DNA of 64,000 nucleotides from Actinomyces slackii (GTDB lineage Bacteria; Actinomycetota; Actinomycetes; Actinomycetales; Actinomycetaceae), in NCBI RefSeq assembly GCF_900637295.1, contig NZ_LR134363.1:558001-622000 (forward strand), written 5' to 3'. The notes beneath the pieces are model-generated. The model did not search any database. It saw only the letters and a list, made by a program, of their open reading frames with translations, and had not been told where the DNA came from. Position 1 is the stretch's first letter; each line of letters begins with the position of its first letter. The translations under genes and the position numbers were made by a program. Below, piece after piece: positions 1 through 40,315 of the stretch.

Positions 1-1648
1 TCAGGGTGCCGGGGCGCGAGTTCGGCCCCACGAGGGCCCAGGTGGCGCGCCGGGAGCGCTTGGCCGCCTCCAGCACCTCCTCCCAGCGGGTGCGGATCAT
101 CTCCGCCTCGGCCGCACCGGGCCCCTGCGCGGCCGCTGGGGGGCTGCTGGGCACCCCCGGCTGCGGGCGCTCCCCGTCCGCAGCCCCGGAGTCCTCGACG
201 GCGGGGGGCGCGGAGACGGCCTGCGGGGCGGCCTGCGGGGCCTGAGCGGCGGCGCGAGCCTGGGTGGGCTCGGGGCTCGGGGAGGCGGGCGCCGAGGCTC
301 CCGTCCCCTCCCAGTCCACGACGACAGGCGAGCCCGCCCCGGCCGCGGGTCCATCGGACCCGCTGGCCCCACCGGGCCCGGCCGGCGTCTCGCCTGGTCG
401 GGAGGCCGGCGCAGTGGTCCCAGCGACCGCCCTGCCCGATCCCGCCCCGGCGGAGGCGGCCGGCGCGACCTGGCCGCCCTGCTGCGCCGGCCCCGCAGAC
501 CCCGCCGACCCCACCGGTGCCGCAGGCGCCTGGGCCTCGCCCCGGGGCTGGGCGGGGATGACGAGCCGGGCCACGAGGAGCTCGAGCTGGAGGCGGGGCG
601 AGGTGGCTCCCACCATGGCGGTCAGGGCCTGCGCCGTCGTATCCGCGGCGCGCGACAGGACAGCGGCACCCATGGTGCGGGCCTGGAGGTCCATGCGGGT
701 CAGCTCGTCGTCGGGCAGGGATCCCAGGGCGGGACCGGCCTGGGACCCGGCCAGGGCGATGACCAGCAGGTCGCGCAGGCGCTGGAGGAGGTCCTCGACG
801 AAGCGGCGCGGATCATGCCCGGAGGTGACCACGCGGTCCACCACACGGAAGACCCCGGCGCCATCGCCGGCGGCGATGGCATCCACGCACTGGTCGAGCA
901 TGGTCGTGTCCGTGTAGCCCAGCAGGGCGACGGCGCGCTGGTAGTCAACGGCGCCGTCGACCGCCCCGCCGATGAGCTGGTCCATGACGGACAGGGTGTC
1001 GCGCACGCTGCCCCCGCCGGCGCGCACCACCAGGGGGAAGACGCCGGGCCCGGCGCTCACGCCCTCGGCGCCGCACAGGTGCCCCAGGTAGCCCTCCAGG
1101 GTGTCGGGCGGGACAAGGCGGAAGGGGTAGTGGTGGGTGCGTGAGCGGATGGTGCCGATGACCTTCTCCGGCTCAGTGGTGGCGAAGATGAACTTCACAT
1201 GCGCCGGCGGCTCCTCGACGAGCTTGAGCAGGGCGTTGAATCCCTGGGCGGTGACCATGTGGGCCTCGTCGAGGATGAAGATCTTGTAGCGATCCCGGGC
1301 AGGGGCGAAGGCGGCGCGCTCGCGCAGGTCGCGGGCGTCGTCGACCCCGTTGTGGCTGGCGGCGTCGATCTCGACGACGTCCAGGCTGCCCGGCCCGCCG
1401 GTGGCCAGATTCCTGCAGGAGGGGCACTGGCCGCAGGGGGTGTCGGTGGGGGCCTGGGCGCAGTTGAGGCAGCGGGCCAGGATGCGCGCGCTGGTGGTCT
1501 TGCCGCAGCCGCGCGGGCCGGAGAAGAGGTAGGCGTGGGTCACGCGCTCGGCGCGCAGCGCCGCCATGAGCGGGGCGGTCACGTGCTCCTGCCCGATGAC
1601 GTCCTGGAAGGTGTCGGGGCGGTAGCGGCGGTACAGGGCGGTGGTCAC
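1..1648 (-). CDS. dnaX: DNA polymerase III subunit gamma/tau (3' end outside window)
   Basis: Clamp-loader ATPase of the replicative polymerase. The N-terminus reads TTALYRRYRPDTFQDVIGQ, followed by a Walker A (GPRGCGKTTSA), a four-Cys zinc site (CLNCAQ...CGQCPSC), the DEAH Walker B (ILDEAHMV) and the sensor region EEPPAHVKFIFATTEPEKV. After about residue 370 the protein turns into an Ala/Pro/Gly-rich linker, as in actinobacterial DnaX, before a last conserved-looking stretch (RTRWEEVLEAAKRSR). The start is a GTG at 1648 with no Shine-Dalgarno; a TAGAGT hexamer lies 6 nt upstream, so the mRNA is probably leaderless. The frame is still open at base 1, so the C-terminus is missing. Family assignment is certain; the exact length is unknown. 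Confidence 0.95.
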   Translation of the reverse strand, partial: MTTALYRRYRPDTFQDVIGQEHVTAPLMAALRAERVTHAYLFSGPRGCGKTTSARILARCLNCAQAPTDTPCGQCPSCRNLATGGPGSLDVVEIDAASHNGVDDARDLRERAAFAPARDRYKIFILDEAHMVTAQGFNALLKLVEEPPAHVKFIFATTEPEKVIGTIRSRTHHYPFRLVPPDTLEGYLGHLCGAEGVSAGPGVFPLVVRAGGGSVRDTLSVMDQLIGGAVDGAVDYQRAVALLGYTDTTMLDQCVDAIAAGDGAGVFRVVDRVVTSGHDPRRFVEDLLQRLRDLLVIALAGSQAGPALGSLPDDELTRMDLQARTMGAAVLSRAADTTAQALTAMVGATSPRLQLELLVARLVIPAQPRGEAQAPAAPVGSAGSAGPAQQGGQVAPAASAGAGSGRAVAGTTAPASRPGETPAGPGGASGSDGPAAGAGSPVVVDWEGTGASAPASPSPEPTQARAAAQAPQAAPQAVSAPPAVEDSGAADGERPQPGVPSSPPAAAQGPGAAEAEMIRTRWEEVLEAAKRSRRATWALVGPNSRPGTL

Positions 1649-18530: not shown

Positions 18531-19985
18531 CATCCACGACGAGCCCCGTCGCTGCCCGGGGTGCCTCATGTCAAGGTGCCCGCGAAATCTTCTCCGTGCC
18601 TCATGTAGGAATGCCCGCAAAACGGGTGGGGTGTCGGGAGGCTTTCTTGACGCGGATGCTGTGGTGGACGTCGGGCAGGGCGCTGGGGATCTGGGCGGCG
18701 TAGAGCTCGTCGGTCTTGGTCTTGGCCTGCATGATCAGGGAGGCCTGAAGGTCGTGGATGCGCCTGGCGATCTTGGCGGGGTTGAGGCTGTCGCGGTAGG
18801 CGATCAGCTCATCCTTGTGCTGGCCGGTCAGGGCATCAGTGGACAGGAGCCGCTCCAGCGGGGTGGCGGGGGCGTCGTAGAGGCGCTTGCGCCGCCCGGC
18901 CTTGTCGGTGCCCCACCCGACGGGCTTGCGGGTGGGTGTCAGGAAGTTGAGGCGGTCGTCGACCAGGGACCACAGGCGGTTCAGGGTGGCGCGCTCGGTG
19001 TCGGTGTCGTACCGGTAGTAGAAGCCGTAGCGGCGCACGAGATGGTTGTTCTTGGACTCGATGGTCGCCTGGTCGTTCTTGCGGTAGGGCCGGGCCCTGG
19101 TGAAGTAGATGCCCAGGTTGCCGGCCCATGCCACGACCCCGTGGTTGATGAACTCGCTGCCGTTGTCGAAGTCCATGCCCAGCAGCGGGAACGGGACGGC
19201 GTCGATGGCTGCGTCCAGGGCGGCAATGATGTGCTTCTCCGCGTTGTTGCGCATCGTGCGGGTGAACACCCACCCGGTGAGCACGTCGGTCATGTTCAGG
19301 GTCCGGGCGAACTCGCCCTTGAGGACCGGGCCGCAGTGGGCGACGGTGTCGACCTCGAAGAACCCCGGGGCGGCCTCGATCTCGTCACCGGCCTTGCGGA
19401 TGGTGATCGAGTTGCGCAGCAGCGGCCCGGCCTTGGTGGTGCTGATCCCCCGGACGGGGTCCTTGGCGCGTACTGGGGCCAGGTACCGGTCGATGGTCGC
19501 CGCACTCATGGCCTCCAGCTCTGCCCGCACCTGGGGCGTGTATCGGGGCTCGTCATCCAGCTCCCCGTGGGACTGGAGCAGGTCGAGCAGCAGCGGCATG
19601 GACGCCGCCAGGTACTTGCCGCACTGCCCGCCACTGGCCGCCCACACCTTTTGCAGGACCTTCAGGGCGTCATAGGAGTACTTGCGGCCCCTGGGCCTGG
19701 GCGCCTCCTTCTTGGCCCCGCCAGGGCGCTTGGCGGCCTGGGTCAGGCGCCTGCGCGCGTTGTCCCGGCTCCAGCCAGTCACCGCGCACACCTCGTCGAG
19801 CATCCGCCCCTTATCGCCCTTGGACGCCCTGGCATACGCCGTGGCGTACTTCCTGGTGATCTCAGCCCTAGCCCCCATCGACAACTCGCTTCCCATGCCC
19901 ACCACGGTCCGCGGATTTCGCGGGCACTTCCACATGAGGCACGGGACCTCCTTCGCGGGCATCCACGATGAGTCTCGTCGCTGCC
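18530..19985 (-). mobile_element. Insertion sequence with rve/DDE transposase (ISNCY-like), ends approximate
   Basis: The transposase gene is bracketed by a 28-bp motif beginning GTGCCTCATGT and ending GTGCCCGCGAAAT. It occurs at 18561-18588, in degraded form at 18596-18622, and inverted at 19915-19942 (25 of 28 matching the first). Outside these lies a 27-bp direct repeat, 18530-18556 and 19959-19985, with 24 of 27 matching. The inverted motif probably marks the transposase-binding ends. No clean target duplication was found, so the borders are uncertain. Confidence 0.65.
18601..19896 (-). CDS. Integrase-core (rve) DDE transposase
   Basis: 431 residues from ATG 19896 (MGSELSMGARAEITRKYA). 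An N-terminal helix-turn-helix region (GRMLDEVCAVTGWSRDNARRRLTQ) is followed by an RNase H-like core with a plausible triad: Asp in FFEVDTVAHCG, Asp in LLGMDFDNGSEFI, and Glu in KNDQATIESKNNHLV. The C-terminal part has LTPTRKPVGWGTDKAGRRKRLYDAPATPLERLL, which I associate with actinobacterial ISNCY-type transposases. No frameshift or stop, so the element may be active. The last codons overlap the degraded left-end repeat. Confidence 0.85.
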   Translation of the reverse strand: MGSELSMGARAEITRKYATAYARASKGDKGRMLDEVCAVTGWSRDNARRRLTQAAKRPGGAKKEAPRPRGRKYSYDALKVLQKVWAASGGQCGKYLAASMPLLLDLLQSHGELDDEPRYTPQVRAELEAMSAATIDRYLAPVRAKDPVRGISTTKAGPLLRNSITIRKAGDEIEAAPGFFEVDTVAHCGPVLKGEFARTLNMTDVLTGWVFTRTMRNNAEKHIIAALDAAIDAVPFPLLGMDFDNGSEFINHGVVAWAGNLGIYFTRARPYRKNDQATIESKNNHLVRRYGFYYRYDTDTERATLNRLWSLVDDRLNFLTPTRKPVGWGTDKAGRRKRLYDAPATPLERLLSTDALTGQHKDELIAYRDSLNPAKIARRIHDLQASLIMQAKTKTDELYAAQIPSALPDVHHSIRVKKASRHPTRFAGIPT

Positions 19986-20071
19986 TTGCCCTCCCTTCAG
20001 GCTTGACGTACACTCGGGCACGCGAGGCCCTATGCGACCACCAGGGTCACCCACGGGGTCTCGCCCCTCGC

Positions 20072-20536: not shown

Positions 20537-21440
20537 GGGTGTTATTCATGGGGGTTTGTTCGTGTCGTTAGTTGGTGCATCGGCCGTCTCGGGAGAGAAT
20601 TGGGTTACCACACTCGATTCTCTTGGGGAGGCGGCCGATGCATTACGAGTCTACCACGGGGCTGTGCGATGAGGATATCGATGAGCTTGTCGGGCGCATC
20701 GAAGAGGTGCTCGAATCTCGGGGCCAGAGTCTATTGGGCTACCGCCTGGGGCTCAGGCAGCAGGTGGAGTTGACCTTGATTCTGGCGCGCCATAACATCT
20801 CCCAGGCCCTGGCCGCCGACATGTGCGGCGTCTCCCAGCCCACCGTCTCCAGGATCTGGAGGCGCATGGTCCCCTTGCTGACCCATGTGCTGGCCATGAG
20901 TGGGATCTCTCTGTCCCAGGCAGTGGCTCAGGGCAGCCTGCTGCTCGTTGATGGCACGCCGATCCCCACTGGTAACAGGCCCGCAGCCGGCAGGCAGGTC
21001 GAGAAGGCCAACTACTCGGGCAAGCACCATGCCCAGTGCCTGAATGTCCAGGTCGCCGCCACCACCGACGCCACCCTGGTGGCGGTCTCGGACCCGGTGC
21101 CCGGCTCACGTCACGACAGCGCCGCCTTGAGCCTGTGCGGCTGGGACACGATCCTCACCGGCGCCGATTGGATCGCCGATACCGCATACACCGCTCATGG
21201 CGCACTGACCCCCATCAAGAAGACGCCGGGAAGAGATCGTCTGGAATGGGAGAAAGACTTCAACAGAGCCGTGTCATCCACGCGCGCCGCCATCGAGCAC
21301 ACCATCGCGACGCTGAAGAAATGGAAGATCCTATCCACCGGCTACCGCCACCGCCTGGCAGAGCTCCCCAGCATCATCACCCTGATCACCAAACTCGAAC
21401 TCTACAGAACAGGCTGGTAACCCCCACATGAATAACACCC
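20537..21440 (+). mobile_element. IS5-family insertion sequence (904 bp, 3-bp TSD)
   Basis: Terminal inverted repeats begin GGGTGTTATTCATG at 20537 and CATGAATAACACCC ending at 21440: 14 bp perfect, continuing with a one-base offset through GGGGTT. Target duplication TTA lies at 20534-20536 and 21441-21443. A 3-bp TNA duplication, 0.9-kb size and a DDE_Tnp_4 transposase fit the IS1031 branch of IS5. It interrupts the DUF3800 gene in the opposite orientation. Confidence 0.92.
20638..21420 (+). CDS. IS5-family transposase (DDE_Tnp_4)
   Basis: 260 residues from ATG 20638 (MHYESTTGLCDEDI), preceded by GGGGAGGCG; an in-frame start at 20572 is less likely. Residues 40-85 form a helix-turn-helix (ALAADMCGVSQPTVSRIWRRM). 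The catalytic Asp residues are in LLVDGTPIP and DWIADTAYTAHG, and the Glu in STRAAIEHTIATLKKW. The frame is intact. The stop lies 20 nt inside the right inverted repeat. Confidence 0.9.
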   Translation: MHYESTTGLCDEDIDELVGRIEEVLESRGQSLLGYRLGLRQQVELTLILARHNISQALAADMCGVSQPTVSRIWRRMVPLLTHVLAMSGISLSQAVAQGSLLLVDGTPIPTGNRPAAGRQVEKANYSGKHHAQCLNVQVAATTDATLVAVSDPVPGSRHDSAALSLCGWDTILTGADWIADTAYTAHGALTPIKKTPGRDRLEWEKDFNRAVSSTRAAIEHTIATLKKWKILSTGYRHRLAELPSIITLITKLELYRTGW

Positions 21441-21907: not shown

Positions 21908-22828
21908 TCAGCCAGGGGGTGACGGCGCCTGACCTGCCAGCAGGTGGCGGGCGGCCACGCCCGCCACGGCCTCCTCGGCGGGGTTGAGGCCGAGGCGGTT
22001 GATGTCGATGTGGATGAGGTCCAGAGCCCGCCGGCCCGCAGGCCCGGCTCCCATGCGACTGATGGCCGCCACCGCATCGGCGGCCAGGTCCTCCAGCCCA
22101 TCCCTCGGCTCCTGCGCGGCCCCCTGCCCGACGACCTCCAGGACCTGTCCCACCAGCGCCTTGAGGCTCTCAGCCCCGCGCAACTCAGCGGGAAGGCGCG
22201 GCCCCCACAGGCGCAACTGCTCACCCAGCAGCCAGCCGGCTGCACTGCCGTCACTATCGCCGCTGCCGTCGCCGCCGCCAGCACCGTCAGTGCCGTCGCT
22301 GCCATCACCGCCCAGTCCGGCCGCCACCAGGGCCATGTACCTGGCGGCCAGGGCCACTCGGGGAAGCGGTCGCCCCACCCGCCAGATCCGCTGCTCCAGG
22401 CACCATGCGGTGGAGGCCGCGAAATGATCCTCCGCGGCCTCGACTCCCGCCTCTCCCCCGTACTTGTCGTACTCGGGGCCGTAGACGGCCAGGCTGAGCC
22501 CGGCACGCCCGGGGCCCGCAGCGGTCAGGGGATCGACCACGAGGCGCTCGACCTGCCCCACCGGAGCGCGGCGCGCCGCCTCATCAAGCACGCCGAGACT
22601 GGCATAGGCCTCATCGAGGACCTCCGGCGCGGCCTGGATGCGCAGTCGCAGGTGATGCCCGCGCAGGTCGACGAAGCGCAGGAAATGGGCCGAGTGGATC
22701 GGCCGCCTCCGCATCCCCTCCAGCCAGCGCCCCACAGCCGGCAGCAGGGCGTCGGTGTCATCGCCCCCCGCGCAGTAGAGGCGCGCATAGAGCCAGTCCA
22801 GCTCTCCCTCGGCTCCGGATCCCATCAC
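21908..22828 (-). CDS. Thiopeptide-type bacteriocin biosynthesis protein (SpaB_C / LanB C-terminal elimination domain)
   Basis: 306 residues. The start DWLYARLYCAGGDDTDALLPAVGRWL and the HFLRFVDLRGHHLRLRIQA and SLAVYGPEYDKYGGEAGVEAAEDHFAASTAW motifs are those of the SpaB_C family, which removes glutamate from glutamylated Ser/Thr to leave dehydroamino acids. The end has LIHIDINRLGL, the usual helix. In thiopeptide clusters a similar fold also makes the pyridine; only one copy is present here. The start overlaps the stop of the LanB gene (GTG 22828 or ATG 22825), so the pair is coupled and together equals a split LanB. It is the last gene of the operon. Confidence 0.85.
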   Translation of the reverse strand: MMGSGAEGELDWLYARLYCAGGDDTDALLPAVGRWLEGMRRRPIHSAHFLRFVDLRGHHLRLRIQAAPEVLDEAYASLGVLDEAARRAPVGQVERLVVDPLTAAGPGRAGLSLAVYGPEYDKYGGEAGVEAAEDHFAASTAWCLEQRIWRVGRPLPRVALAARYMALVAAGLGGDGSDGTDGAGGGDGSGDSDGSAAGWLLGEQLRLWGPRLPAELRGAESLKALVGQVLEVVGQGAAQEPRDGLEDLAADAVAAISRMGAGPAGRRALDLIHIDINRLGLNPAEEAVAGVAARHLLAGQAPSPPG

Positions 22829-25350
22829 TGCCCTCCCTCACCGCTCTTGGGCCACTGCACGCTGACCAGGTACTCCAGCGCCGTGGCCCGCCCCGAGCCG
22901 GTGGTGCCGGCCACCTGCTCGCGCCCCGGCAGGGCCTCGATCAGGCTGAGGTGCTCAGCGCTGGCATCGATCCACCCGCGCAGCGCCAGAAGCGAGGCCG
23001 GGCAGGTCAGGTCGACGTAGAAGGGCTTGTGCTCATCGAAGGTCGCCCCCCTGGGGGGCAGGTGCTGATGGGCATAGACCTGTGCGGGCAGCCCCCACCG
23101 CTCGCGCAGGCCCGCCACCCCCAGCAGGCTGTCCGTCAGATCCGCCCCCAGCAGGCCGGTGAGCTCACCGGCCGGGAAGGTCCAGGACTCCCGTCGGGTG
23201 ACCAGGCGTCCATCAGTGATGCGCGGGCTGTGGACGAGGCGATCGGGGCGCGGCCCGGTCCTGTCGCGCTCACGGCTGGTCCAGTGATCGGCCATGGGGG
23301 GCAGGCGCGCCCAGGGCTCGGCGATGAGCACCAGCCAGGCCAGGTACCCGCCCAGGAGGTGCTGGGCGGTCAGGCCCAGGTAGGCCAGGCCCACCGGCCC
23401 CTGGGAGTCGGCCAGGAACAGGGTGCTGGTGGCCGGGTCGTGGACCAGTCTCAGAGTGGACAGCCCGACGGCGTCGGGCGCCCCGGGCTCACCGGGCAGC
23501 CCCAGCGGGGGCAGCAGACCGCCGGCGATGGCCTGGCCGGTGTTGCAGTCGGTGGAGACCTGCAGCTCCAGGACCCGGTCAAGCCCCCAGGCCTGACGGA
23601 TGCCGCTGGCCAGGCGCTGACCGTAGTCCTGCCCCAGGAGTCGGTGGAAGCGGGCCTGCGCGGAGCCATTGCCGTTGGTGAAGCCTCCCACCACGATAAG
23701 ACCCGCGTCCTGGCCGGGCCCGGCCACCGGCTGAAGATAGGCGCCCATATGCCGTGGGGCCCCCGACAGGCCCCCGGGCATGGCGGCCCGCTCGGGACTG
23801 GGCCCGCCCGCGAGGTCGCGCATGGCCGCCTGCATCATCTCGACATCCCCGTCGGGGGCGTGGGCCAGGGTCATGACGAAGGCCAGGGGGTCCTCGCAGA
23901 TGCCCCCGCGCCCGTAGCGGGCGATGAACCGCTCGACGAGCAGGTCGTAGAGATGGGACCGGGTCACCCAGGGGTCAGCCATGTCGGCGAGCGCCTCGAC
24001 ATCCTGGCGGAAGGGCCCCTGGCTGAGGGGATCAGCCCACTCCACCTGGGACTCGCAGTCCTCGTAGAGCAGGCCGCCGGGCCTGGTGCCCAGCTCACCG
24101 TCCGGGAAGATGCGGCCGGCGATCTCCTTGCCGCGGGTCAGCAGCTCGGCCCGAGCCGGCCCATCAGCGACCTCGACAATGGGGGCCAGCGCCCCCAGGC
24201 GCTCCAGGTCCTGGCGCCAGACCTCGCGCTGGCGCTGCGAGAGGGCCTGCCCCAGCGCGGGGAACGGGTCCTGCCCCCTGATCCAGGGGGGCCGGACATG
24301 CAGCGCCCCGGCCGCCAGAAGGCGCTCAAGACGACGGCGCGGCTGAGGACCGCCCAGGCGCCGGCCGGCCTCCTCCAGGCTCACGGCGGGCGGCTCCACC
24401 GGCGAGCGGGGCGCCGCCTCCCGGTGGGGGCGGGCCCCCGATCCAAGCCGATCCTCGCTCCCATCCTGGTCCGCGGACAGGGCCCGGTGGGCCGCCAGCA
24501 GCCACCGGGCGGGCTGGACGCGCTCCTGGCGGAAGGGCAGCCCGTCGGCATAGCTGTGCTCCCCGACGATGGCCAGCGGCCCGACCCATGCGGCCTGCCC
24601 GGAGGCCTCATCGGGCTCAGCGAGCACGGGCACGGCCTGACGCACGGGGAGCGCCTCGATGGCCAGGGAGCCGGATGTATCGACCTCGCCGGCCGCCCGC
24701 ATCAACAGCCCGTGAGCCAGGTGGACGGCCACCGTGCACAGCCGCCGCCCCTTCCCGGCCCTGCCCGCCTCGGCCACCGTGGTCATCCCGGAGAAGGGGC
24801 TGGTCTTCAGGCCCGCCCGAGTGGCCAGCGCGTAGAGGCTGCGCACCTGGCGCGGATCCTCCAGTCTCGGGCCCCTCCTGACGATCTCTGCCACAAGCCC
24901 CGGGGCGGCGATCGCCAGGGAGCGCAGGTATCCGGGCTCGTCCAGGCCGGCGGCCAGCACCTGGCGGCTGCGCTCCATATCCGCCGCCACGGCGGTCTCC
25001 AGGCGCTCGCGGGCCTGGGCGATCCTGCTCATCAGCGCGTCCCAGCGGGTCAGCATGGTGCCGGCGGGCTCAGGCAGCGCCTCTGCCTCGTCCTGGGGGA
25101 TGCCGGTGGCCCGGCCCTGGAAGATCCGCCGCTTGGCGCGCAGGACCGCGCGCCGCTGCTGGCGCTCCAGGCCGGGGACGATCTCGTAGAGCGGGTCGAG
25201 CATGTCCTGGCCGGCCCGCCGGGCGCTCTCCTCCAGGCGGCGCAGGTCCTCCAGGGCGTCGAGCAGCTCGGGACCGGGCGCGGGCACGGCGCTGGCGGGG
25301 AGCCCTCCCACGCGCACCAGGGTGGGAAGGGACAGGTTCGGGGAGGTCAT
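22825..25350 (-). CDS. LanB-type dehydratase, glutamylation domain
   Basis: 841 residues of the Lant_dehydr_N family. These enzymes use glutamyl-tRNA to activate Ser/Thr of a RiPP precursor. Seen: SLYALATRAGLKTSPFSGMTTVAEAG, the conserved TSPFS motif; the LYDLLVERFIARYGRGG stretch; VVGGFTNGNGSAQARFHRLLG and STDCNTGQAIAGGLLPPLGLPGE near the C-terminal part; and TWVL-type strands at the end. The elimination domain is absent and is encoded by the next gene, the arrangement known from thiopeptides and goadsporin. Its ATG overlaps the stop of the protease gene by 4 nt. Confidence 0.88.
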   Translation of the reverse strand: MTSPNLSLPTLVRVGGLPASAVPAPGPELLDALEDLRRLEESARRAGQDMLDPLYEIVPGLERQQRRAVLRAKRRIFQGRATGIPQDEAEALPEPAGTMLTRWDALMSRIAQARERLETAVAADMERSRQVLAAGLDEPGYLRSLAIAAPGLVAEIVRRGPRLEDPRQVRSLYALATRAGLKTSPFSGMTTVAEAGRAGKGRRLCTVAVHLAHGLLMRAAGEVDTSGSLAIEALPVRQAVPVLAEPDEASGQAAWVGPLAIVGEHSYADGLPFRQERVQPARWLLAAHRALSADQDGSEDRLGSGARPHREAAPRSPVEPPAVSLEEAGRRLGGPQPRRRLERLLAAGALHVRPPWIRGQDPFPALGQALSQRQREVWRQDLERLGALAPIVEVADGPARAELLTRGKEIAGRIFPDGELGTRPGGLLYEDCESQVEWADPLSQGPFRQDVEALADMADPWVTRSHLYDLLVERFIARYGRGGICEDPLAFVMTLAHAPDGDVEMMQAAMRDLAGGPSPERAAMPGGLSGAPRHMGAYLQPVAGPGQDAGLIVVGGFTNGNGSAQARFHRLLGQDYGQRLASGIRQAWGLDRVLELQVSTDCNTGQAIAGGLLPPLGLPGEPGAPDAVGLSTLRLVHDPATSTLFLADSQGPVGLAYLGLTAQHLLGGYLAWLVLIAEPWARLPPMADHWTSRERDRTGPRPDRLVHSPRITDGRLVTRRESWTFPAGELTGLLGADLTDSLLGVAGLRERWGLPAQVYAHQHLPPRGATFDEHKPFYVDLTCPASLLALRGWIDASAEHLSLIEALPGREQVAGTTGSGRATALEYLVSVQWPKSGEGGQ

Positions 25351-26531
25351 GCCAGGAGGCCTTTCACGAGGTAGGTCGCCAGGAAGCCCATCCAGACAAC
25401 ACTGACCACCATGGTCGCCGCCCCCAGCAGGGTGCAGGCCAGCCCATAGGCGAAGTACCCCCAGCGCACGGCGGGCCGCAGGGAGGCCAGGCCGGCGGGC
25501 AGGGGCTCACGCCGCAGCACGCTTCCCAGGATGAGCATGGAGCGCCCGCGCAGGTTGACGGTTCCGGTCAGGGCCTCGGCGGCGGCCACGCCGTCGGACT
25601 GGGTGAGGGGGCTGAGGTTGGTGATGAGCATGGTCAGCTGGAAGGCGCACAGGGTGAGGGCCACATGCCGCACGGTCCCGGTGGAGGAGGCGGCCACCGC
25701 GGCCTCGATGCCGCAGATGACGCCGTCGGAGCAGATGCCGGCCAGGGCGAGCATGGCCCTGCCCAGCCGCGAGCGCACCCGGTAGGAGTCGGTGCGGTCC
25801 ACATAGGCGATGGGCAGGACCCAGAACATGAAGGCCACCCCGAGCCCTCGCACGGGGGTGCCCAGCCAGGCGGCGACAATGGCGTGCCAGGACTCGTGCG
25901 CCACGATGCTCACCAGTTGGATGGCCACGGCGATGACGAACACGTGCATGCCCGGCGGGGGCCCTCCGGCCAGGTTGATCAGGGCGACCGCCCCGGCGAC
26001 GAATCCGGCCACGGAGGCGGCCAGGAAGACCCAGCTCAGCGCCCGGGCGGGCAGGCGGTGAAGCAGGGCGGCAAGCGGGGCGACCACCCGGTTGAAGCTG
26101 CGCATGACCATGAGGCGCGGCAGCATCCATCCTCCGCTCCAGCGCGGGGAGGAGACCTGCAGGTGACGCCCCATCCGGGGGTAGGCGACGTGTCGGCCCC
26201 GCACGCGGCGGGCGCGCCGCACCTTGGCGGGGCTGGGGGGCGGGCCGACGGCGCGCTCGGGCCCGGGTCCCACCAGGAGGCGCTTGGAGCGCAGCGCCTC
26301 GACCATGCCGGTGATGCGCTGGACGCCGGCGTCATCGATGTCCTGGGGGAGCTGGTCGATGATGGTGGACAGGCTGCGCAGGCCGTCGAACTGGTTGACG
26401 ATGAAGGCCGCGGCCGCGCCCAGGCGGTGGTAGCTGCCGGAGGCGCTGTCGAAGAGCATGGCCTGGTTGTCCATGCCCACGATCAGCGTCACTCCGGGGC
26501 GCAAGCGCGGGATATCACTGGTGGTGCTCAT
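25347..26531 (-). CDS. Membrane zinc metalloprotease (M50-like) with N-terminal PqqD-like domain
   Basis: 394 residues. Residues 1-85 look like a PqqD/RRE leader-binding domain (TLIVGMDNQAMLFDSASGSYHRLGAAAAFIVNQFDG, STIIDQLPQD). A basic linker is followed by hydrophobic segments. The M50 zinc motif HESWH is at 212-216, and the third-ligand motif NxxPxxxxDG (NLSPLTQSDG, Asp313) is in a later segment, so the active site appears complete. Gene order (directly after the precursor gene, coupled to the dehydratase) suggests it removes the leader, releases the peptide at the membrane or gives self-protection. No ABC transporter is in the cluster. The role is inference. Confidence 0.78.
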   Translation of the reverse strand: MSTTSDIPRLRPGVTLIVGMDNQAMLFDSASGSYHRLGAAAAFIVNQFDGLRSLSTIIDQLPQDIDDAGVQRITGMVEALRSKRLLVGPGPERAVGPPPSPAKVRRARRVRGRHVAYPRMGRHLQVSSPRWSGGWMLPRLMVMRSFNRVVAPLAALLHRLPARALSWVFLAASVAGFVAGAVALINLAGGPPPGMHVFVIAVAIQLVSIVAHESWHAIVAAWLGTPVRGLGVAFMFWVLPIAYVDRTDSYRVRSRLGRAMLALAGICSDGVICGIEAAVAASSTGTVRHVALTLCAFQLTMLITNLSPLTQSDGVAAAEALTGTVNLRGRSMLILGSVLRREPLPAGLASLRPAVRWGYFAYGLACTLLGAATMVVSVVWMGFLATYLVKGLLA

Positions 26532-26566: not shown

Positions 26567-26597
26567 GGCGGGCGGGGGATGATCTCCCCCGCCCGCC
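26567..26597 (-). terminator. Hairpin after the precursor gene (attenuator)
   Basis: GGCGGGCGGGGGA and its complement form a 13-bp perfect stem with a 5-nt loop, 25 nt after the precursor stop and before the protease start. No T-run. Such hairpins often lower readthrough so that precursor mRNA exceeds enzyme mRNA. Confidence 0.6.
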
Positions 26598-26621: not shown

Positions 26622-26816
26622 TCAGCAGACGGTCGACGAGCTGGCCGCGCAGGACGGGCAGGACGACGAGGCCGCGCAGGACGGGCAGGACGACGAGGCC
26701 GCGCAGGACGGGCACGAGGCCGAGGCCGCGCAGAAGGCGCAACCCAGGGCGTTGCCCTCGGGGAGCTCCTCGACACCGAAGTCGCCGTCGGCGAGTGTCA
26801 GATCAATCGTGGTCAT
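26622..26816 (-). CDS. RiPP precursor peptide with four tandem Cys/Ser-rich core units
   Basis: 64 residues. The start is supported by a near-perfect Shine-Dalgarno, AAGGAGGTGA, 7 nt before ATG 26816. The leader of about 25 residues is acidic (DLTLADGDFGVEELPEG) and ends NALG. The 39-residue core is one CAFCAASAS unit, three identical CPSCAASSS units, then TVC. It has 9 Cys, 14 Ser and 1 Thr: 24 of 39 residues could be cyclised or dehydrated. At DNA level this is a 27-bp tandem repeat (about 26633-26740). Neighbours encode a YcaO cyclodehydratase, azoline dehydrogenases and a split LanB, so Cys should become thiazol(in)es and Ser oxazol(in)es or dehydroalanine. The leader/core border is inferred. 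Confidence 0.88.
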   Translation of the reverse strand: MTTIDLTLADGDFGVEELPEGNALGCAFCAASASCPSCAASSSCPSCAASSSCPSCAASSSTVC

Positions 26817-26860
26817 ATGCTGTTCACCTCCTTCACTGGCATGTCTCGCTGGGTTGGAGC

Positions 26861-26966: not shown

Positions 26967-27737
26967 TCAGGGTGGATCGTCCGTGGAGGGGGCCGCCCCG
27001 CTCGGCTCTGCGGGCCCTGCCGGCTCTGCCTGTTCTGCCGGCTCAGCCGACTGGGGGGCGGCCACGGTGACGGCGAACATCTGGTGCCGGCTCACGCCGT
27101 CGGAGTCCAGGAGGTGGCGCACCATGGAGGTGGAGAATCCGGCGAAGACCGTCCCGGCCAGGCTGTGGGCGGTGGCCCGCAGGTGCACCGAGTAGATGAG
27201 GGAGGCGCTGCGCATCATGGCGAATCGGTACCCGTGGGCACCGGCCCAGGAGTCGGCCCCGTCCAGGTCGGCGGCCACCGAGACGATGGCCCCGGCGCGG
27301 GCGAACTCCTTCTGGACGGCCATGCCCTCGATCTGCTCGTAGGTGGGCAGGGGGCGCAGGAGCTCGGCGCCGTCGCGGCCCACCCGGTAGATGCCCGGCT
27401 CGGCGCCTCGGGGGCGCAGCAGCAGGACGAAGGGCTCCAGGGCCACGAGGTCGGCCTGCCGCCCCCACGTGGTCTGGTCCTCGATGAGGGCCTGGCGCAC
27501 CATGCCCAGCAGCGGGGCGGCGTCCAGGGGCTCGGGCCCGTAGGAGGTGGTCGAGGAGCGCTGCACCAGGGTCTGGCGCAGGTCACGGGGATGGGGGCCG
27601 GGCTCGGGGAGGCTGAGGCCCTGGCCCTCCAGGGCTCGGGCGCGGCGCTGGCCCGCCAGGCCGTCGGCGCTGGAGGGCTGGTCGGGGTCGGCGAATCCGG
27701 AGAGGATCTCCCGCAGGGTCTGGTAGTCAGAGCGCAT
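26967..27737 (-). CDS. Nitroreductase-family azoline dehydrogenase (SagB/TbtE-like)
   Basis: 256 residues. The FMN-binding start is LRQTLVQRSSTTSYGPEPLDAAPLLGMV, and LVALEPFVLLLRPRGAEPGIYRVGRDGAEL and the SLIYSVHLRATAHSLAGTVFAGFS region match the second half of SagB-type dehydrogenases. These oxidise thiazolines and oxazolines to azoles with FMN. The tail (AEPAEQAEPAGPAEP) is low-complexity. It overlaps the preceding gene by 11 nt and has GAAAGGA before its ATG. A second nitroreductase-like half is fused in the preceding protein, so the two may form a heterodimer. Confidence 0.8.
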   Translation of the reverse strand: MRSDYQTLREILSGFADPDQPSSADGLAGQRRARALEGQGLSLPEPGPHPRDLRQTLVQRSSTTSYGPEPLDAAPLLGMVRQALIEDQTTWGRQADLVALEPFVLLLRPRGAEPGIYRVGRDGAELLRPLPTYEQIEGMAVQKEFARAGAIVSVAADLDGADSWAGAHGYRFAMMRSASLIYSVHLRATAHSLAGTVFAGFSTSMVRHLLDSDGVSRHQMFAVTVAAPQSAEPAEQAEPAGPAEPSGAAPSTDDPP

Positions 27738-29469
27738 GGCGTCCTTTCAGGTCGACGACGGCGCACACCGGCTCGCGCCGCGGGTCGGTGCCCAACTGGG
27801 CTGCCAGCTCCTGCTCGTCCCACAGGGCCCAGGCCCGCATGGGCAGTCCCAGGGCCTGGGCGACCAGGCGGATGACGGCGAAGGAGCAGCCGCAGTCCTG
27901 AATGGCCAGGCGCAGGCCGAAGGCGAAGTACTTGCGGGCCAGCTTGTCCACGTTGCCGGTCAGCACCAGGCGCAGGCCGCTGCGGGGCGCCAGGGGCGGT
28001 GGGCCCACGAGGGCCAGGGCGTGGTCGCGCTCGATGTAGGTGTAGGTGCCGGGGGCCAGGTCCGCGGGGGCGTCGGGGGCATCCGGCTCGGGCACCAGGA
28101 GGTAGGCGGTCACTGAGCCGACGTTGCCGCCGGCGGCCGTCCAGCGGCGCAGCTTGTTGCGGGGGTCCTCGGGGTCGGCGCCCGGCTCCAGGGGCTCGCG
28201 CACGCCGACCGCCAGGGCCAGGACGGTGGCCACCTCGACCAGTGACGGCAGTGCCGGCCCTGGGCCGGCCTCGGTCAGGGGCGGGGCGGGTGTGGGCGGT
28301 GTGGGCGGTGTGGGCCAGGGCCGCTCCAGCAGGCCCAGGTCGGCCGGCGGCAGGGGGGTGCGCGGGCAGACCGGCCAGTCGCGGAACTCGTGCTGGAGGC
28401 GCAGGTTGGAGGGCTTGTAGTGCTGCTGGTGGCCCTTGGAGTCGACGAAGGCGGCCGGGGGGATGGCCACGGACTGCTCGTAGCGGGCTCCGATGGGGGC
28501 GGTGGGGGACACCGGTGCGCCGTCGTCGCCGCTGATGGAGCACACCGGGCAGCCGGGGCGGGTCACGGCCGGCCGGTCGGTGTGGGCCAGGGTCTCCAGG
28601 TCGATGCGTCGCGAGTCCCCGGGCAGGTGGATGGTCGTGGCGCGGGCGATGAGCTCGGCCACGGCCCGGGCGGCCAGGCCGACGACGATGTCGCGGCGCG
28701 CCGCTGACGGCGCGGGCCCGGCCTCATCCTCTCCGCTGGAGGCGCACTCCAGGCAGGGGGAGAAGGCCGGATCCACGTAGGGCCCGATGGTCACGGCCCC
28801 ATCCTCGGCGCGCACTCGCAGCAGGGGCAGGCCCGCCTGCCAGCAGCGCTGGGCCATCCCCGCGATCCCGGGGGCCTTGTCCGCGGCGGTCTCGATGAGG
28901 ACGGCCAGGGTGTCATCGTCCTGCGGGTCTCCGGCGCGCACCGCCAGGGTGGGCTCCAGGGCGGCCACCAGCTCGTCGGCCAGATCGGCTGCCGGCCCAG
29001 TGGTGCCCGGACCGGTCAGGACGACGACGCGCGCGGCGCCCAGGCGTCGGGCGGCGTCCTGCCAGGAGTCGTTGACCCCGGTGGAGTCCCCCAGGCGGGA
29101 GAGCAGGCAGGCCAGCTCCGGGGCGGGGCCGGGCTCCTGGAGGGGCGGGGTGTCTCCCTCCTCGACGATGCCGCCGGTCCACAGCAGGGAGACCGCCTGG
29201 AAGGCGGCCTGGGCCCCGATGCCCGTGTCCTGGCCGATCTGCTCGATGCTGCGGCTGGCGTCGCAGGCCTCCAGCAGGTCTGCCAGGTGCTCGCGCGCGA
29301 AGGCCCCGCCCAGGACCTGGGTCTTGCGGGCGCCGTCGATCACCAGGCCCTCATCGCTCAGGCGGGCGTGAAGCCCGAGCCGCATCACGGGGCGGCGGGG
29401 GATGCGGAACTGCAGGTCGCTGCGGGCGGCCCGGCCGACGTCGTCGGCGCGCATCACTGACCCGGCCAT
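27727..29469 (-). CDS. ThiF-like cyclodehydratase partner fused to nitroreductase-like domain
   Basis: 580 residues. The N-terminal region (about 20-110) resembles the winged RRE of F-type TOMM proteins (MRLGLHARLSDEGLVIDG, FAREHLADLLEACD). A Rossmann-like part with a four-Cys zinc site follows (C239, C242, C307, C310: PCLECASS and GCPVCS). From about 320 to the end it looks like a SagB-type domain (KLRRWTAAGGNVGSVTAYLLVPE, GTYTYIERDHALALV, RKYFAFGLRLAIQDCGCSFAVIRLVAQALG). The fusion would bring leader recognition and ring oxidation together. ATG directly follows the stop of the previous gene (TGAATG) behind GGGAGGTG. FMN residues were not verified. Confidence 0.75.
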   Translation of the reverse strand: MAGSVMRADDVGRAARSDLQFRIPRRPVMRLGLHARLSDEGLVIDGARKTQVLGGAFAREHLADLLEACDASRSIEQIGQDTGIGAQAAFQAVSLLWTGGIVEEGDTPPLQEPGPAPELACLLSRLGDSTGVNDSWQDAARRLGAARVVVLTGPGTTGPAADLADELVAALEPTLAVRAGDPQDDDTLAVLIETAADKAPGIAGMAQRCWQAGLPLLRVRAEDGAVTIGPYVDPAFSPCLECASSGEDEAGPAPSAARRDIVVGLAARAVAELIARATTIHLPGDSRRIDLETLAHTDRPAVTRPGCPVCSISGDDGAPVSPTAPIGARYEQSVAIPPAAFVDSKGHQQHYKPSNLRLQHEFRDWPVCPRTPLPPADLGLLERPWPTPPTPPTPAPPLTEAGPGPALPSLVEVATVLALAVGVREPLEPGADPEDPRNKLRRWTAAGGNVGSVTAYLLVPEPDAPDAPADLAPGTYTYIERDHALALVGPPPLAPRSGLRLVLTGNVDKLARKYFAFGLRLAIQDCGCSFAVIRLVAQALGLPMRAWALWDEQELAAQLGTDPRREPVCAVVDLKGRHAL

Positions 29470-30090
29470 TCAGCCCACCTCCCTGCGGTGGGGAAGGAGC
29501 TCGGCGAAGCCGGCCAGGGAGCCGCGGCGCGCAGCGTAGCGCCCCGAGCAGGTGGGGCAGCGGTCCACGGCCACGGTCCGGGCGCAGGCGGTCGCCCCCG
29601 AGACCAGGTCCATGGTCCACACCTGGCCGCCGATCCCCTCATCCTGGGGCCCGTTGTCGAGGGCCTCCAGGGCCAGGCCGATCAGGCCGGCGCCGATGAC
29701 CACGTGGTGGTGGGCGTAGCCCTGGGGCAGGGGTGCCAGACCCTCGGGGCGGGGGCGGTGGCCGTGCTGGCGGCGCCGGCGGGTCAGGCAGGTGTGGCAG
29801 GCGCTGGCCCCGGGGACCACCAGGGGGCCGCAGCGCAGCTCGGTGGGATCCAGCTCCAGGCCCACCGAGGGCAGGCGCCTGGCGAAGGACAGGGCATCCA
29901 GGGCCTGGCGCAGCTCGCTCTGCTCGGGGTCGCAGATCATGACCAGGCGCTCGGCGAAGGGGACGGCGGCACTGGCCAGTCCGTCGTCGACCGGCAGGAC
30001 CGGGTCGTGGGGGCCGGCCAGGCGCCGGGCGACGGCGTGGCCGAATCCCCCCTGGGGCAGGTAGGCCGTGACCGGCCGGGTGGTGCTCAT
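29470..30090 (-). CDS. TOMM ThiF/E1-like partner protein (ocin-ThiF-like)
   Basis: 206 residues from ATG 30090 behind GCGAGGAA. Visible: TAYLPQGGFGHAVARRLAG, LVMICDPEQSELRQALDALSFARRLPSVGLELDPTELRCGPLVVPG, then two zinc-type pairs, CHTCLTR (C98, C101) and CPTCSGRY (C178, C181). This is the degenerate E1-like fold that presents the leader to YcaO proteins. It is shorter than TbtF-like proteins and lacks an obvious winged-helix start, which may be supplied by the fused protein encoded next. Gap to the YcaO gene is 25 nt. Confidence 0.75.
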   Translation of the reverse strand: MSTTRPVTAYLPQGGFGHAVARRLAGPHDPVLPVDDGLASAAVPFAERLVMICDPEQSELRQALDALSFARRLPSVGLELDPTELRCGPLVVPGASACHTCLTRRRRQHGHRPRPEGLAPLPQGYAHHHVVIGAGLIGLALEALDNGPQDEGIGGQVWTMDLVSGATACARTVAVDRCPTCSGRYAARRGSLAGFAELLPHRREVG

Positions 30091-30115
30091 GATTCCTCGC
30101 TCCTGTGCACGGGCC

Positions 30116-31465
30116 TTAGGCGAAGGGCTGCTTGACGGGGTTGATGTCCTTCTCCTCATGGACCTCCAGGCCCATGGCCCGGGGCGCCTGGTAGAGGCGG
30201 GGGGTGGCCAGGAAGCGGGCGCGGTGGCTGAAGGACAGGGGCATGGCCTGGGGGATGAGGGCCTTGATGACATGCATGCCCACCTGGCGGGCCTCATCGG
30301 TGGTCAGGTCGACGACGATAGCCTCGGCGCCGGCCCTCTCCAGGTGGGAGACAACCCGCTCCAGGGGGTCGCCCCCCTCGGGCAGGGCGCCCACCTGGGA
30401 CAGGGGGCGGACCGGCCGGGGGCCCTGGAGGAGGAAGTCGAAGACGTGGCGCATCTGCGGGTCGGCATTGGCCAGGGCTCCCCCGACGACGGTGAGGTCC
30501 TGGTCGGTGACCTCCTTCTTGCTGCGGGGGTTGCGCGCATAGCTGCGCAGGGCGATGCGCAGGGAGGCGAGCTCGCGGTAGATCTTGGCCAGGGCCCGCT
30601 GGGGGTCCAGGTCGCAGGTGGCCGCCACGACCTGGGCGAGCTCGGTATCGTCGCTGGAGGTCTGAACGGCGTAGAGCACGGGCACGCCGTAGTCGGTGGT
30701 GGCGTCGAAGAGATGGACCTCCAGCCCGGTGGAGGTGCCGACCCGGTGGTACTCGGCGGCCACGGCGTCCAGGGCGTCGGGGTCGACCTCCACGCGGGGA
30801 AGGCGCAGGCGCTGGAGCCAGGTCAGGGAGATCGAGTCCCGCTCGATGACCTCCAGCAGGCCTCCCAGGACGGCCTCGCGCAGGTCGGCGTGGGCGGCGG
30901 TGCCCGTGGAGACCGGGTTGGTGAAGAACTCGCTGGGGCTGTGCAGGGGGAAGTTGAGGTAGGCCAGGATGGCGGGGACGAAGACCTCACGTCCGCGGGT
31001 CAGGGACCATCCGCGCACCCAGCGGATGGGGACCCGGGGGTCGGGGTCCCGCAGGCCGCAGTGGGGGTCGGCCAGCTCGGTGGGCGAGCAGACCGGCCAG
31101 TGCTCGGGGCCGATCGCGCCCTCCCCCAGGCCGGCGGCGGTGTCCCAGATGAGCTCGTCCTCGCTCCAGGCGCAGGAGGAGTAGCGCTCCATGGACTCGA
31201 CGATGGCGATATGACGGGCGCGGTCGGCGTCGATGGCCCCGCCGGCGCCGTCGATGTTGCCCGACTCGGCCCGGTGCCTCCACACGCGCTGGGAGTCCAG
31301 TGCGGCGGACAGGTCCCCCAGGAAGGCGGTCCAGATGGCGAAGACCGGCTCGCCCGCGGCCTGGGGGAGCTCGGCCGAGCGCGAGACCAGGCCGTAGGGG
31401 GACTCCAGCTCGGCCGCGCGGGCCAGGGAGGGGGGCACATCCTCAGTGAGTGCTGACCGGTGCAT
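30116..31465 (-). CDS. YcaO-domain azoline-forming cyclodehydratase
   Basis: 449 residues of the YcaO family, which uses ATP to phosphorylate the amide while Cys or Ser attack the backbone. ATP/Mg motifs are present: IVESMERYSS (Glu90, Glu93, Arg94), GTAAHADLREAVLGGLLEVIERDS (Glu205, Glu208, Arg209) and PQRALAKIYRELASLR. The C-terminus ends INPVKQPFA, similar to the Pro-rich tail needed by these enzymes. It is the first gene of the minus-strand operon, 270 nt from the divergent regulator. The ThiF-like proteins next to it are the expected partners. Confidence 0.9.
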   Translation of the reverse strand: MHRSALTEDVPPSLARAAELESPYGLVSRSAELPQAAGEPVFAIWTAFLGDLSAALDSQRVWRHRAESGNIDGAGGAIDADRARHIAIVESMERYSSCAWSEDELIWDTAAGLGEGAIGPEHWPVCSPTELADPHCGLRDPDPRVPIRWVRGWSLTRGREVFVPAILAYLNFPLHSPSEFFTNPVSTGTAAHADLREAVLGGLLEVIERDSISLTWLQRLRLPRVEVDPDALDAVAAEYHRVGTSTGLEVHLFDATTDYGVPVLYAVQTSSDDTELAQVVAATCDLDPQRALAKIYRELASLRIALRSYARNPRSKKEVTDQDLTVVGGALANADPQMRHVFDFLLQGPRPVRPLSQVGALPEGGDPLERVVSHLERAGAEAIVVDLTTDEARQVGMHVIKALIPQAMPLSFSHRARFLATPRLYQAPRAMGLEVHEEKDINPVKQPFA

Positions 31466-31735: not shown

Positions 31736-32440
31736 ATGTCTTCCCGGCTCACTCCACCGCCCATCGGCGTCGCCCTGGTCGACGACGACGCCATGGCCCT
31801 GGCCCACCTGGAGTCCTACTTCACCACCGCCCCCGATATCAGGGTCCTGCTGGCCACCCGCTCGGCCGAGAAGGCCATACGGCTCCTCGAATCCCAGCAG
31901 GTCGACGTTCTCATCACCGATATCCACGTCCAACTGGGCGCCCTGGACGGGGCGGGGCTGACCCGTCAGGCGCTGGCGGCCTGCCCGCGCACCGGCGTCA
32001 TCCTGCTGACCACCACGGACACCGACGATGACCTCATGGTGGGCCTGCGCGCCGGTGCCAGCGGATTCCTGCTCAAGAGCGCCTCCGCTGAGGAGATCAT
32101 GGCCGCGGTGCGCACCGTCCACTCCGGGGGCAAGGTCGTGGCCCCCGCCAAGACCGCCCGCCTCATCGACCACGCCCTGGCCTCGATGCGCACGGCCGAC
32201 GGCAGTGTCGACCTCTCCGATCGCGAGCACGATGTGCTGCGCCTGCTGTGCGACGGGGCCTCCAATCGCAAGATCGCCTCGCGGCTGTCCATCTCCGAGG
32301 CCACGGTCAAGACGCATGTCTCCGTGCTGCTGCACAAGACCGGGGCCTCCTCGCGCCTGGAGATCGTCGTGTGGGCCTTCCGGCACGGCTACGCCTCGCA
32401 GCTCCGCCAGCCCGCCGAGCCCGTGAGCACGCCCTGCTGA
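31736..32440 (+). CDS. NarL/FixJ-family response regulator (orphan)
   Basis: 234 residues from ATG 31736 behind AAGGAGAGAC. The receiver domain has the acidic pocket (VDDDAM), phospho-acceptor Asp62 (LITDIHV), switch Thr (LLTTTD) and Lys (LLKSASAEE). The C-terminal LuxR-type helix-turn-helix is complete: LSDREHDVLRLLCDGASNRKIASRLSISEATVKTHVSVLLHKTGASSRLE. No histidine kinase is next to it. Its divergent position makes it the likely regulator of the RiPP operon. Confidence 0.85.
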   Translation: MSSRLTPPPIGVALVDDDAMALAHLESYFTTAPDIRVLLATRSAEKAIRLLESQQVDVLITDIHVQLGALDGAGLTRQALAACPRTGVILLTTTDTDDDLMVGLRAGASGFLLKSASAEEIMAAVRTVHSGGKVVAPAKTARLIDHALASMRTADGSVDLSDREHDVLRLLCDGASNRKIASRLSISEATVKTHVSVLLHKTGASSRLEIVVWAFRHGYASQLRQPAEPVSTPC

Positions 32441-38453: not shown

Positions 38454-38971
38454 CGATGCTCCATTCAACAAGCCAACAACAAAGCAACGCCGCATCGCGC
38501 ACGCAGCCACGAGGCGCTGGCGCAGGGAGTCGCAGCGCGCCGGGGAAGCACGCCACCAACCAGGCTACCCACCAATCCCCATCCCGCACACCGCCCCCGG
38601 GTCACGAATCAGACGCAAAACGGTCACATCTCTCAAACACCCTCTCCCATGTTGGCCACCCAATAGTTCAGAACACCCGAACGATTGGATTATCGCCGAG
38701 CTCTGAGCATGAAAACACCGCGACGTCCGAAGCCTCACCCGGCGCCCACAACACATACGAACTCAGGGATTCAGCCCTGGGATATGCGACGTTCGCTCCG
38801 ACTTGGTATCAGGTGGTGAAAGCAACGAGGAGGCAGCCTGGCCAACACAAAACACTGCCCGAAAATCATCCCGTACTCCAGTGGTGCGCCATTGCTTGGC
38901 GGCACCAGGAGCAGCATGCGGGGGGCCGGGCAGTGCGCCCGCCCCCCCCCGCACTGCGGTGGGACCGCGTG
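38454..38971. other. Intergenic region with lower GC
   Basis: About 520 bp holding the promoter region of the surface-protein gene and, at the far end, the terminator of the esterase gene. No gene recognised. Confidence 0.55.
38930..38957 (-). terminator. Hairpin after the esterase gene
   Basis: GCAGTGCG (38930-38937) pairs with CGCACTGC (38950-38957) around a C-rich loop on the plus strand; 15 nt after the esterase stop. No T-run. Confidence 0.5.
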
Positions 38972-39943: not shown

Positions 39944-40302
39944 GGCGCCTCCTTGTGTGTGGCTCGCAGCGGGGCAGCTGAGCATGCCCCGCATTGGACT
40001 CATTCCACTGCACTGGATCGCATCCAGTCAGGAACAACGGTTCTGAGCGATATTGATCCAGTTCTCGTGGAACGCGTCATGGACGCTACCCCATGGAATA
40101 TTCTCGGTGCAACCCGTGAGTCAAACGTCCTCTGGCCTGCGCATACCGCGCCCCGGCGCCGGGCCCGCTCGTGAGATCTGAGCCCCATGGGGCAGTCTCC
40201 CCATACCGGCCCCTGGCCCGACAGGGGGCGATCTGCCCATCGCAGGCGCTCCAGCCCTGCGGGCTCGTACCGCCACATGATGAGCGCTGGCAGGTCCGCT
40301 CG

Positions 40303-40308
40303 TAGAAT
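40303..40308 (+). promoter_or_regulatory. -10 box, leaderless
   Basis: TAGAAT followed by 7 nt and ATG 40316. Confidence 0.55.
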
Positions 40309-40315
40309 CTGGCTC

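Follow-up and report, generated by a model that had tools for sequence, protein, structure and literature searches.

Peptides that carry both azoles and dehydroalanine (Dha) and are made with a split LanB dehydratase are already known from goadsporin, and Cys repeats that vary by triplets between strains are known from heterocycloanthracin. In the available part of the goadsporin study, azoles at T2, T5, C8 and S15 require an X1-(S/T/C)-X2 context, Dha at S4 and S14 depends on the azoles at 5 and 15, and an engineered "GodA-tandem" with a 38-mer core was correctly processed, gaining 12 azoles and 4 Dha (PMC5303826). The heterocycloanthracin precursors of Bacillus have strain-variable Cys-Xaa-Xaa repeats with tripeptide indels and often lie far from their enzymes, and the accessible portion of that report mentions no LanB pair (PMC2674419). 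For the related sonorensin, no repeat is printed in the accessible part of the paper (PMC4544038). Excerpts on the dehydrazoles, such as carnazolamide, describe many azoles together with Dha, dehydration occurring only at a Ser that precedes an azole (PMC10676384), and excerpts on coryneazolisin, of the orphan TOMM class, describe LanB-like dehydratases without a cycloaddition enzyme (PMC4603692). The assertion in the preliminary description of this DNA that thiopeptide and goadsporin cores are not tandemly repeated is too strong, given the heterocycloanthracin repeats and the engineered goadsporin tandem in those portions of the two reports (PMC2674419, PMC5303826).

The window analysed here, a 64,000-nucleotide stretch of the Actinomyces slackii genome, contains an operon that probably encodes a precursor maturing into a linear RiPP of goadsporin type, bearing azoles and dehydroalanine and with its length set by a 27-bp repeat, and the enzymes that would mature it. 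Read along the minus strand, the order is YcaO, a 208-aa ThiF-like protein, a 580-aa ThiF and SagB-like fusion, a 256-aa SagB-like protein, the precursor, a PqqD-like/M50-like protein, LanB_N (841 aa) and LanB_C (306 aa). The features are as follows.

31736..32440, plus: LuxR-type response regulator, divergent; a relative is there in 20/21 repeat-type loci, and the contig of the 21st ends earlier
30116..31465, minus: YcaO cyclodehydratase (TIGR03604, 410 bits)
29470..30096, minus: ThiF-like putative leader-binding protein, 208 aa (TIGR03882 just above cut-off; start codon uncertain)
27727..29469, minus: ThiF-like protein fused to a SagB-like dehydrogenase domain, 580 aa (TIGR03882; dehydrogenase part below cut-off)
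26967..27737, minus: second SagB-like protein, 256 aa (weak match)
26827..26833, minus: Shine-Dalgarno AAGGAGG, its last base 10 nt 5' of the ATG
26622..26816, minus: precursor peptide gene, 64 aa (NF033482 match and homologues)
26742..26816, minus: leader, 25 codons, C-terminal end LPEGNALG (boundary placed by conservation)
26715..26741, minus: core unit 1, CAFCAASAS
26634..26714, minus: core units 2-4, CPSCAASSS three times, 27 bp each
26625..26633, minus: C-terminal tail TVC (mostly TTSC in relatives)
26567..26597, minus: 13-bp hairpin directly 3' of the precursor stop
25347..26531, minus: membrane metalloprotease of M50-like type with a PqqD-like domain; motif HESWH; putative leader peptidase (neither Pfam match reaches its gathering score)
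22825..25350, minus: LanB_N, predicted glutamylating dehydratase half, 841 aa (nearest solved sequence by profile, 9jhq)
21908..22828, minus: LanB_C, predicted glutamate-eliminase half, 306 aa (TIGR03891)

The precursor (26622-26816, minus strand) reads MTTIDLTLADGDFGVEELPEGNALG followed by CAFCAASAS CPSCAASSS CPSCAASSS CPSCAASSS TVC, a translation that confirms both the ORF and the core of nine-residue repeats put forward in the preliminary description. Its further particulars stand as well: a recount on the A. slackii core again gives 24 Cys, Ser or Thr among 39 residues, the leader ending in NALG has six acidic residues and no basic one, and the near-perfect Shine-Dalgarno sequence lies in place before the ATG, where AGGAGGTGAA is found in 22/22 Actinomyces precursors read. 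The HMM search that it proposed against RiPP precursor sets returns NF033482 (the NCBI model "thiocillin family RiPP") at 46.9 bits against a cut-off of 25, and with eight of its relatives the precursor spans 37-74 bits on this model; since NCBIfam already holds the precursor family, the claim of a "new system" goes too far. At the DNA level the core consists of 3.4 copies of a 27-bp tandem repeat with 95% matches, units 2 and 3 identical at 27/27 bases and unit 4 differing at 4/27. In 22/22 loci a hairpin of 13-20 bp stands directly after the stop codon of the precursor, with 20 distinct 5' arms that each have a complementary partner and folding z-scores of -1.7 to -6.1 against 50 dinucleotide shuffles; a structure kept without sequence conservation suggests a function, and the hairpin is probably an attenuator favouring precursor mRNA or a stabiliser of a transcript end.

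Precursor matches occur in 26 of 49 Actinomyces genomes, and repeat-type cores, the A. slackii window included, in 22 of the 49, beside the same operon. Because the same leader and periodic core recur in these 22 genomes, a chance origin of the ORF is excluded, and it is this ORF that the related clusters conserve, where its absence beside some other conserved precursor would have spoken against the assignment. Two genomes (G025, G032) match only as clusters of several single-copy precursors, one (G042) has both types, and two with weak precursor matches (G033, G047) show no match to nine reference proteins in the 20-kb surroundings. The named records include A. oris, A. naeslundii, A. johnsonii, A. 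israelii, A. gerencseriae, A. massiliensis, A. denticolens, A. timonensis and A. bowdenii. The gene order is the same in 21 repeat-type relatives, 20 of them whole and one (L042) on a contig that begins inside the 580-aa gene. In the window purB lies at 16651-18096, and it is near the operon in 20/21 repeat-type loci (not in the stretch of L033), so the operon occupies a stable chromosomal place. Two different transposase genes, rve/IS481-like (18601-20013, minus) and DDE_Tnp_4 (20572-21420, plus), lie between the operon and purB in the window, and in L033 an ORF resembling a transposase gene occurs on the downstream side of the operon. Other neighbours in the window are a heavy-metal P-type ATPase (34063-36579, plus), a surface-type DUF5979 protein whose stalk is a proline/threonine-rich repeat (36804-38510, minus) and an LPG-synthase-TM protein (40187-43060, plus).

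A search with the M50 protein across the class found 8/394 genomes, that of the window included, and a precursor at only one (L083) of the seven other M50 loci in the short flanks scanned; a plasmid search gave no match. Of the candidate proteins scored with the precursor profile, 173 matched at E <= 0.001. Many of the 120 matches listed are named "thiocillin family RiPP", and hosts among them include Streptomyces, Kitasatospora, Amycolatopsis, Nonomuraea and Rothia. Among the sequences examined, multi-unit cores occur only with the Actinomyces-type leader.

Read from its residues, the true unit of the core is the triplet [C/S/T]-x-x, and the 9-mer is three such triplets. Counted from the residue after NALG, phase 0 is C, S or T at 266/266 positions in 20 distinct genomic cores, compared with 36/247 in phase 1 and 118/247 in phase 2, and 5000 shuffles of the cores reached at most 176 in phase 0. 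Adding metagenome cores (32 distinct in all) gives 389/389, 53/359 and 170/359; metagenome-type proteins were kept only if Cys came first and TSC, SSC or VC last, a filter that left out 9/28 homologous proteins, biases the first and last positions of those kept and was not applied to the genomic set. As the cores are also related, the register is to be read as conservation under constraint, not as independent sampling. Of the Cys residues, 245/247 keep phase 0; the two that do not are the final Cys of the A. slackii core and that of its three-unit metagenome sibling (P0003). Provided that the core begins directly after NALG, all 20 distinct genomic cores start with Cys. In 22/22 genomic precursors, at any unit number, the core opens with C-x-F and closes with a short tail ending in Cys.

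Core lengths in genomes are 31 (three units), 37, 39, 40 or 43 residues. The comparison of repeat number across related genomes, suggested in the preliminary description, thus reveals variation: three or about four units in genomes, and 1, 2, 3 and 4 among metagenome proteins, where exact repeats may be collapsed by the assembly of short reads. P0003 is the A. slackii protein minus one unit. L022 and P0024 differ by a single triplet, and the other length differences are usually of nine residues, that is three triplets, so that a change of unit alters the length and leaves the register unbroken. A tree built from the M50 protein (22 rows; stars on 6/19 inner branches) requires at least 5 changes of core length, and at least 2 between three-unit and longer cores.

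More distant operons, in Streptomyces and Nonomuraea, carry 2-5 single-copy precursors; the sister clusters, in which 2-5 precursor genes stand in tandem, include L052 (8441-9100), L053 (9165-10060), L054 (8177-8850) and L073-L077. Each of these precursors has a single core of about 28 residues whose spacing takes a +4 step midway. This resembles goadsporin, where T12 and C18 complete a second 3-spaced half after such a step, as in the single-copy relatives (0..12 / 16..25). In 27 distinct single-copy cores, counted after two ORFs (L054:3724 and L076 minus 9826) were dropped, C/S/T occupies 133/135 of positions 0, 3, 6, 9 and 12, 105/107 of positions 16, 19, 22 and 25, and 170/484 elsewhere. 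A wider set of 69 cores from a protein search gives 342/345 (0-12), 254/272 (16-25) and 414/1236 elsewhere; it partly contains the same cores, leaves out 8/92 proteins without a 22-34-residue core after a leader motif and 15 duplicates, and retains two entries of Actinomyces type, P0032 and the seemingly chimeric P0034.

The operon of YcaO, ThiF-like, nitroreductase and split LanB genes named in the preliminary description stands as regards YcaO, the ThiF-like proteins and LanB, and the nitroreductase call is weak. The 580-aa fusion scores 47.7 bits on TIGR03605, under the cut-off of 78.4, and the 256-aa protein has no Pfam match at E 0.1 and matches TIGR03605 at E 0.014; because these dehydrogenase matches fall under the curated cut-off, azolines instead of azoles are possible. 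A KY motif occurs in the 580-aa protein and an RSST..Y motif in the 256-aa protein (27727-29469 and 26967-27737, minus strand); the two SagB-like halves possibly form a heterodimeric dehydrogenase. A search for the KY motif among the dehydrogenases matched only the A. slackii window. In the PqqD-M50 protein, HES[WA]H is present in 30/30 loci (anywhere in six frames) and is the first HExxH within the M50 match in 26/29. The protein would suit the role of a leader protease at the membrane, which is only suggested, since its best NCBI match, a daptide metalloprotease model at 85 bits, is far under the cut-off of 300.

Both LanB halves match in 29/29 operon loci examined (24, including L052-L054, plus five), LanB_N being partial in two. 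In one Actinomyces locus (L031, 8616-11083, minus) LanB_N matches as two overlapping pieces, likely a frameshift or sequencing error. A LanB_N profile of 18 loci has as its best solved sequence the "Goadsporin biosynthetic protein" 9jhq (E 3e-86), followed at E 1e-35 by 6ec7, a protein with a lantibiotic dehydratase domain. Profile alignment shows kinship of LanB_C with the elimination domains of MibB and NisB; searched singly against the PDB by phmmer, the 306-aa protein gave weak or unrelated matches (E >= 0.04).

The locus thus resembles goadsporin in its split LanB with 9jhq as nearest solved LanB_N, in an X1-(S/T/C)-X2 register, in the lack of a pyridine synthase and in the Dha predicted directly before an azole. 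It differs in that its YcaO is discrete, whereas the literature describes that of goadsporin as fused, in its ThiF-dehydrogenase fusion and PqqD-M50 protein, and in a core tandemly repeated in nature. Pfam and NCBIfam searches of the eight operon proteins found no fused cyclodehydratase, N-acetyltransferase or peptidase-ABC transporter and no GodH- or GodB-like gene. Goadsporin self-resistance uses an extra Ffh (GodI); a goadsporin-like third SRP54 gene is absent here, the genome having two SRP54-family genes, as many as Ffh and FtsY would account for. The many azoles and the Dha at Ser before an azole that we predict recall the dehydrazoles, which differ in their LanM-type CcaM dehydratase (DUF4135) and NH-like leader; no DUF4135 LanM-type dehydratase has a Pfam match among the eight operon proteins. 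LanB-like dehydratases in the absence of a cycloaddition enzyme are shared with coryneazolisin, for which the available part of the source describes, in contrast, two D proteins and a core of 10 C/S/T, Ile and 5-7 C/S/T (PMC4603692). What is new here is the triplet unit, the varying unit number, the eliminase signature without a pyridine synthase, and a goadsporin-matching register together with LanB_N.

Operon, register, repeat-number change and eliminase signature can be read off the DNA; we infer the residues modified, the cleavage, the export and the antibacterial role. The ThiF-like proteins would hold the leader while YcaO and the SagB-like dehydrogenases make azol(in)es out of each third residue, be it C, S or T (13 such residues in the A. 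slackii core). LanB_N would then glutamylate each Ser directly before an azole and LanB_C eliminate the glutamate to give Dha, with 7 candidate sites; the 13 candidate azoles and 7 candidate Dha follow from transferring the goadsporin and dehydrazole rules to this core. Its calculated monoisotopic mass is 3512.256 without modification, and would become 3251.915 with 13 azoles, 3225.972 with 8 Cys-derived azoles and 7 Dha, and 3125.841 with 13 azoles and 7 Dha. The PqqD-M50 membrane protease would cut the leader off after NALG, the entire core would form one molecule, and gain or loss of a 27-bp unit would lengthen or shorten it in register. The earlier idea of a long regular poly-azole/dehydroalanine peptide is accordingly supported as probable, by an azole and Dha operon and a conserved precursor. 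No exporter was recognised adjoining the A. slackii operon among the ORFs tested; an ABC transporter gene follows LanB_C in L052, L054 and L077. The antibacterial role is suggested by the compound class. In its available portion, a survey of Actinomyces describes a gingival enrichment of RiPP clusters and inhibition by isolates, with no link to this operon (PMC8549736).

An azole-only, heterocycloanthracin-like repeat peptide, in which LanB has a minor role or none, would account for the Cys-Xaa-Xaa repeats with tripeptide indels, the hallmark of heterocycloanthracin that the Actinomyces cores share with it and with sonorensin, and for the F-protein-like ThiF. We consider it unlikely, given the LanB pair in all 29 operon loci, the 168 Ser residues immediately N-terminal to a phase-0 residue (a Cys in 126 cases), and the lack of TIGR03601 (the heterocycloanthracin leader) among the NCBIfam matches at E 0.1.

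The NCBI family name implies a true thiopeptide of thiocillin type, with a pyridine-centred macrocycle, whereas the enzyme set here argues otherwise. The genome has a single Lant_dehydr_C gene, that for LanB_C, and no match to the pyridine synthase model NF045556 above cut-off (best 11.8 bits, E 0.18). We drew a comparison set from eight genomes with a pyridine synthase above the NF045556 cut-off, taking the neighbouring protein of the synthase as the eliminase. R63, E119, H273 and E286 are present in 21/21 LanB_C proteins aligned (21/30 loci) and in 8/8 thiopeptide eliminases, and are replaced in 8/8 pyridine synthases; K122 is invariant in Actinomyces-type LanB_C, the eliminases having A, T, R or M and the synthases V. 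The LanB_C profile scores 8/8 neighbouring eliminases at 36-48 bits and pyridine synthases at no more than 26.5, 3/8 being absent among the matches listed. By these aligned residues, the 306-aa protein bears an eliminase signature, and with no pyridine synthase above cut-off in the genome the product is probably not a thiopeptide. Its predicted fold also resembles TbtD and PbtD, eliminases and pyridine synthases sharing a fold that Foldseek does not separate. Thiopeptides need Ser at core position 1 for the pyridine ring; some single-copy relatives do start with Ser, yet all distinct genomic repeat-type cores start with Cys. The precursor score on NF033482, the thiopeptide-like enzymes (TIGR03891) and NF045556-like genes in four other Actinomyces genomes notwithstanding, we regard a thiopeptide as very improbable and set that reading aside. 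Those four loci (L103-L106, in G012, G033, G009 and G003), whose pyridine-synthase-like matches are below the cut-off in 4/49 Actinomyces genomes, may be true thiopeptide or pyritide clusters.

That the core is a polyprotein cut into nine-residue units, as the exact repeats in the window had also suggested to the preliminary description, is scarcely credible, since the repeats contain neither a leader motif nor any other repeated recognition sequence, start and tail are kept at every unit number, including a one-unit metagenome form (P0027), and L022 and P0024 show one-triplet indels.

With a linear goadsporin-like peptide preferred, the locus seems, by analogy, to be the natural counterpart of the engineered "GodA-tandem". 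The titles and opening lines of abstracts covered by the literature search contain no description of a naturally tandem-repeated goadsporin-like core with exact register and changing unit number. More tentatively, it is conceivable that the product is a length-tunable polyazole/Dha polymer, in which 27-bp slippage adds or removes in-register nine-residue modules, strains of a single species make a product ladder, and length itself is the evolving trait, bearing on potency, range or self-immunity; were this so, goadsporins built of tandem repeats would form a natural class, common across Actinomyces.

Enzymes with a local every-third-residue rule could handle any repeat number, and this family would show nature using that freedom, with natural substrates of different unit number ready for a study of length versus activity. 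R63, E119, H273 and E286 provide a residue test separating eliminases from pyridine synthases, and the findings suggest that some actinobacterial "thiocillin family" precursors may yield linear goadsporin-like peptides.
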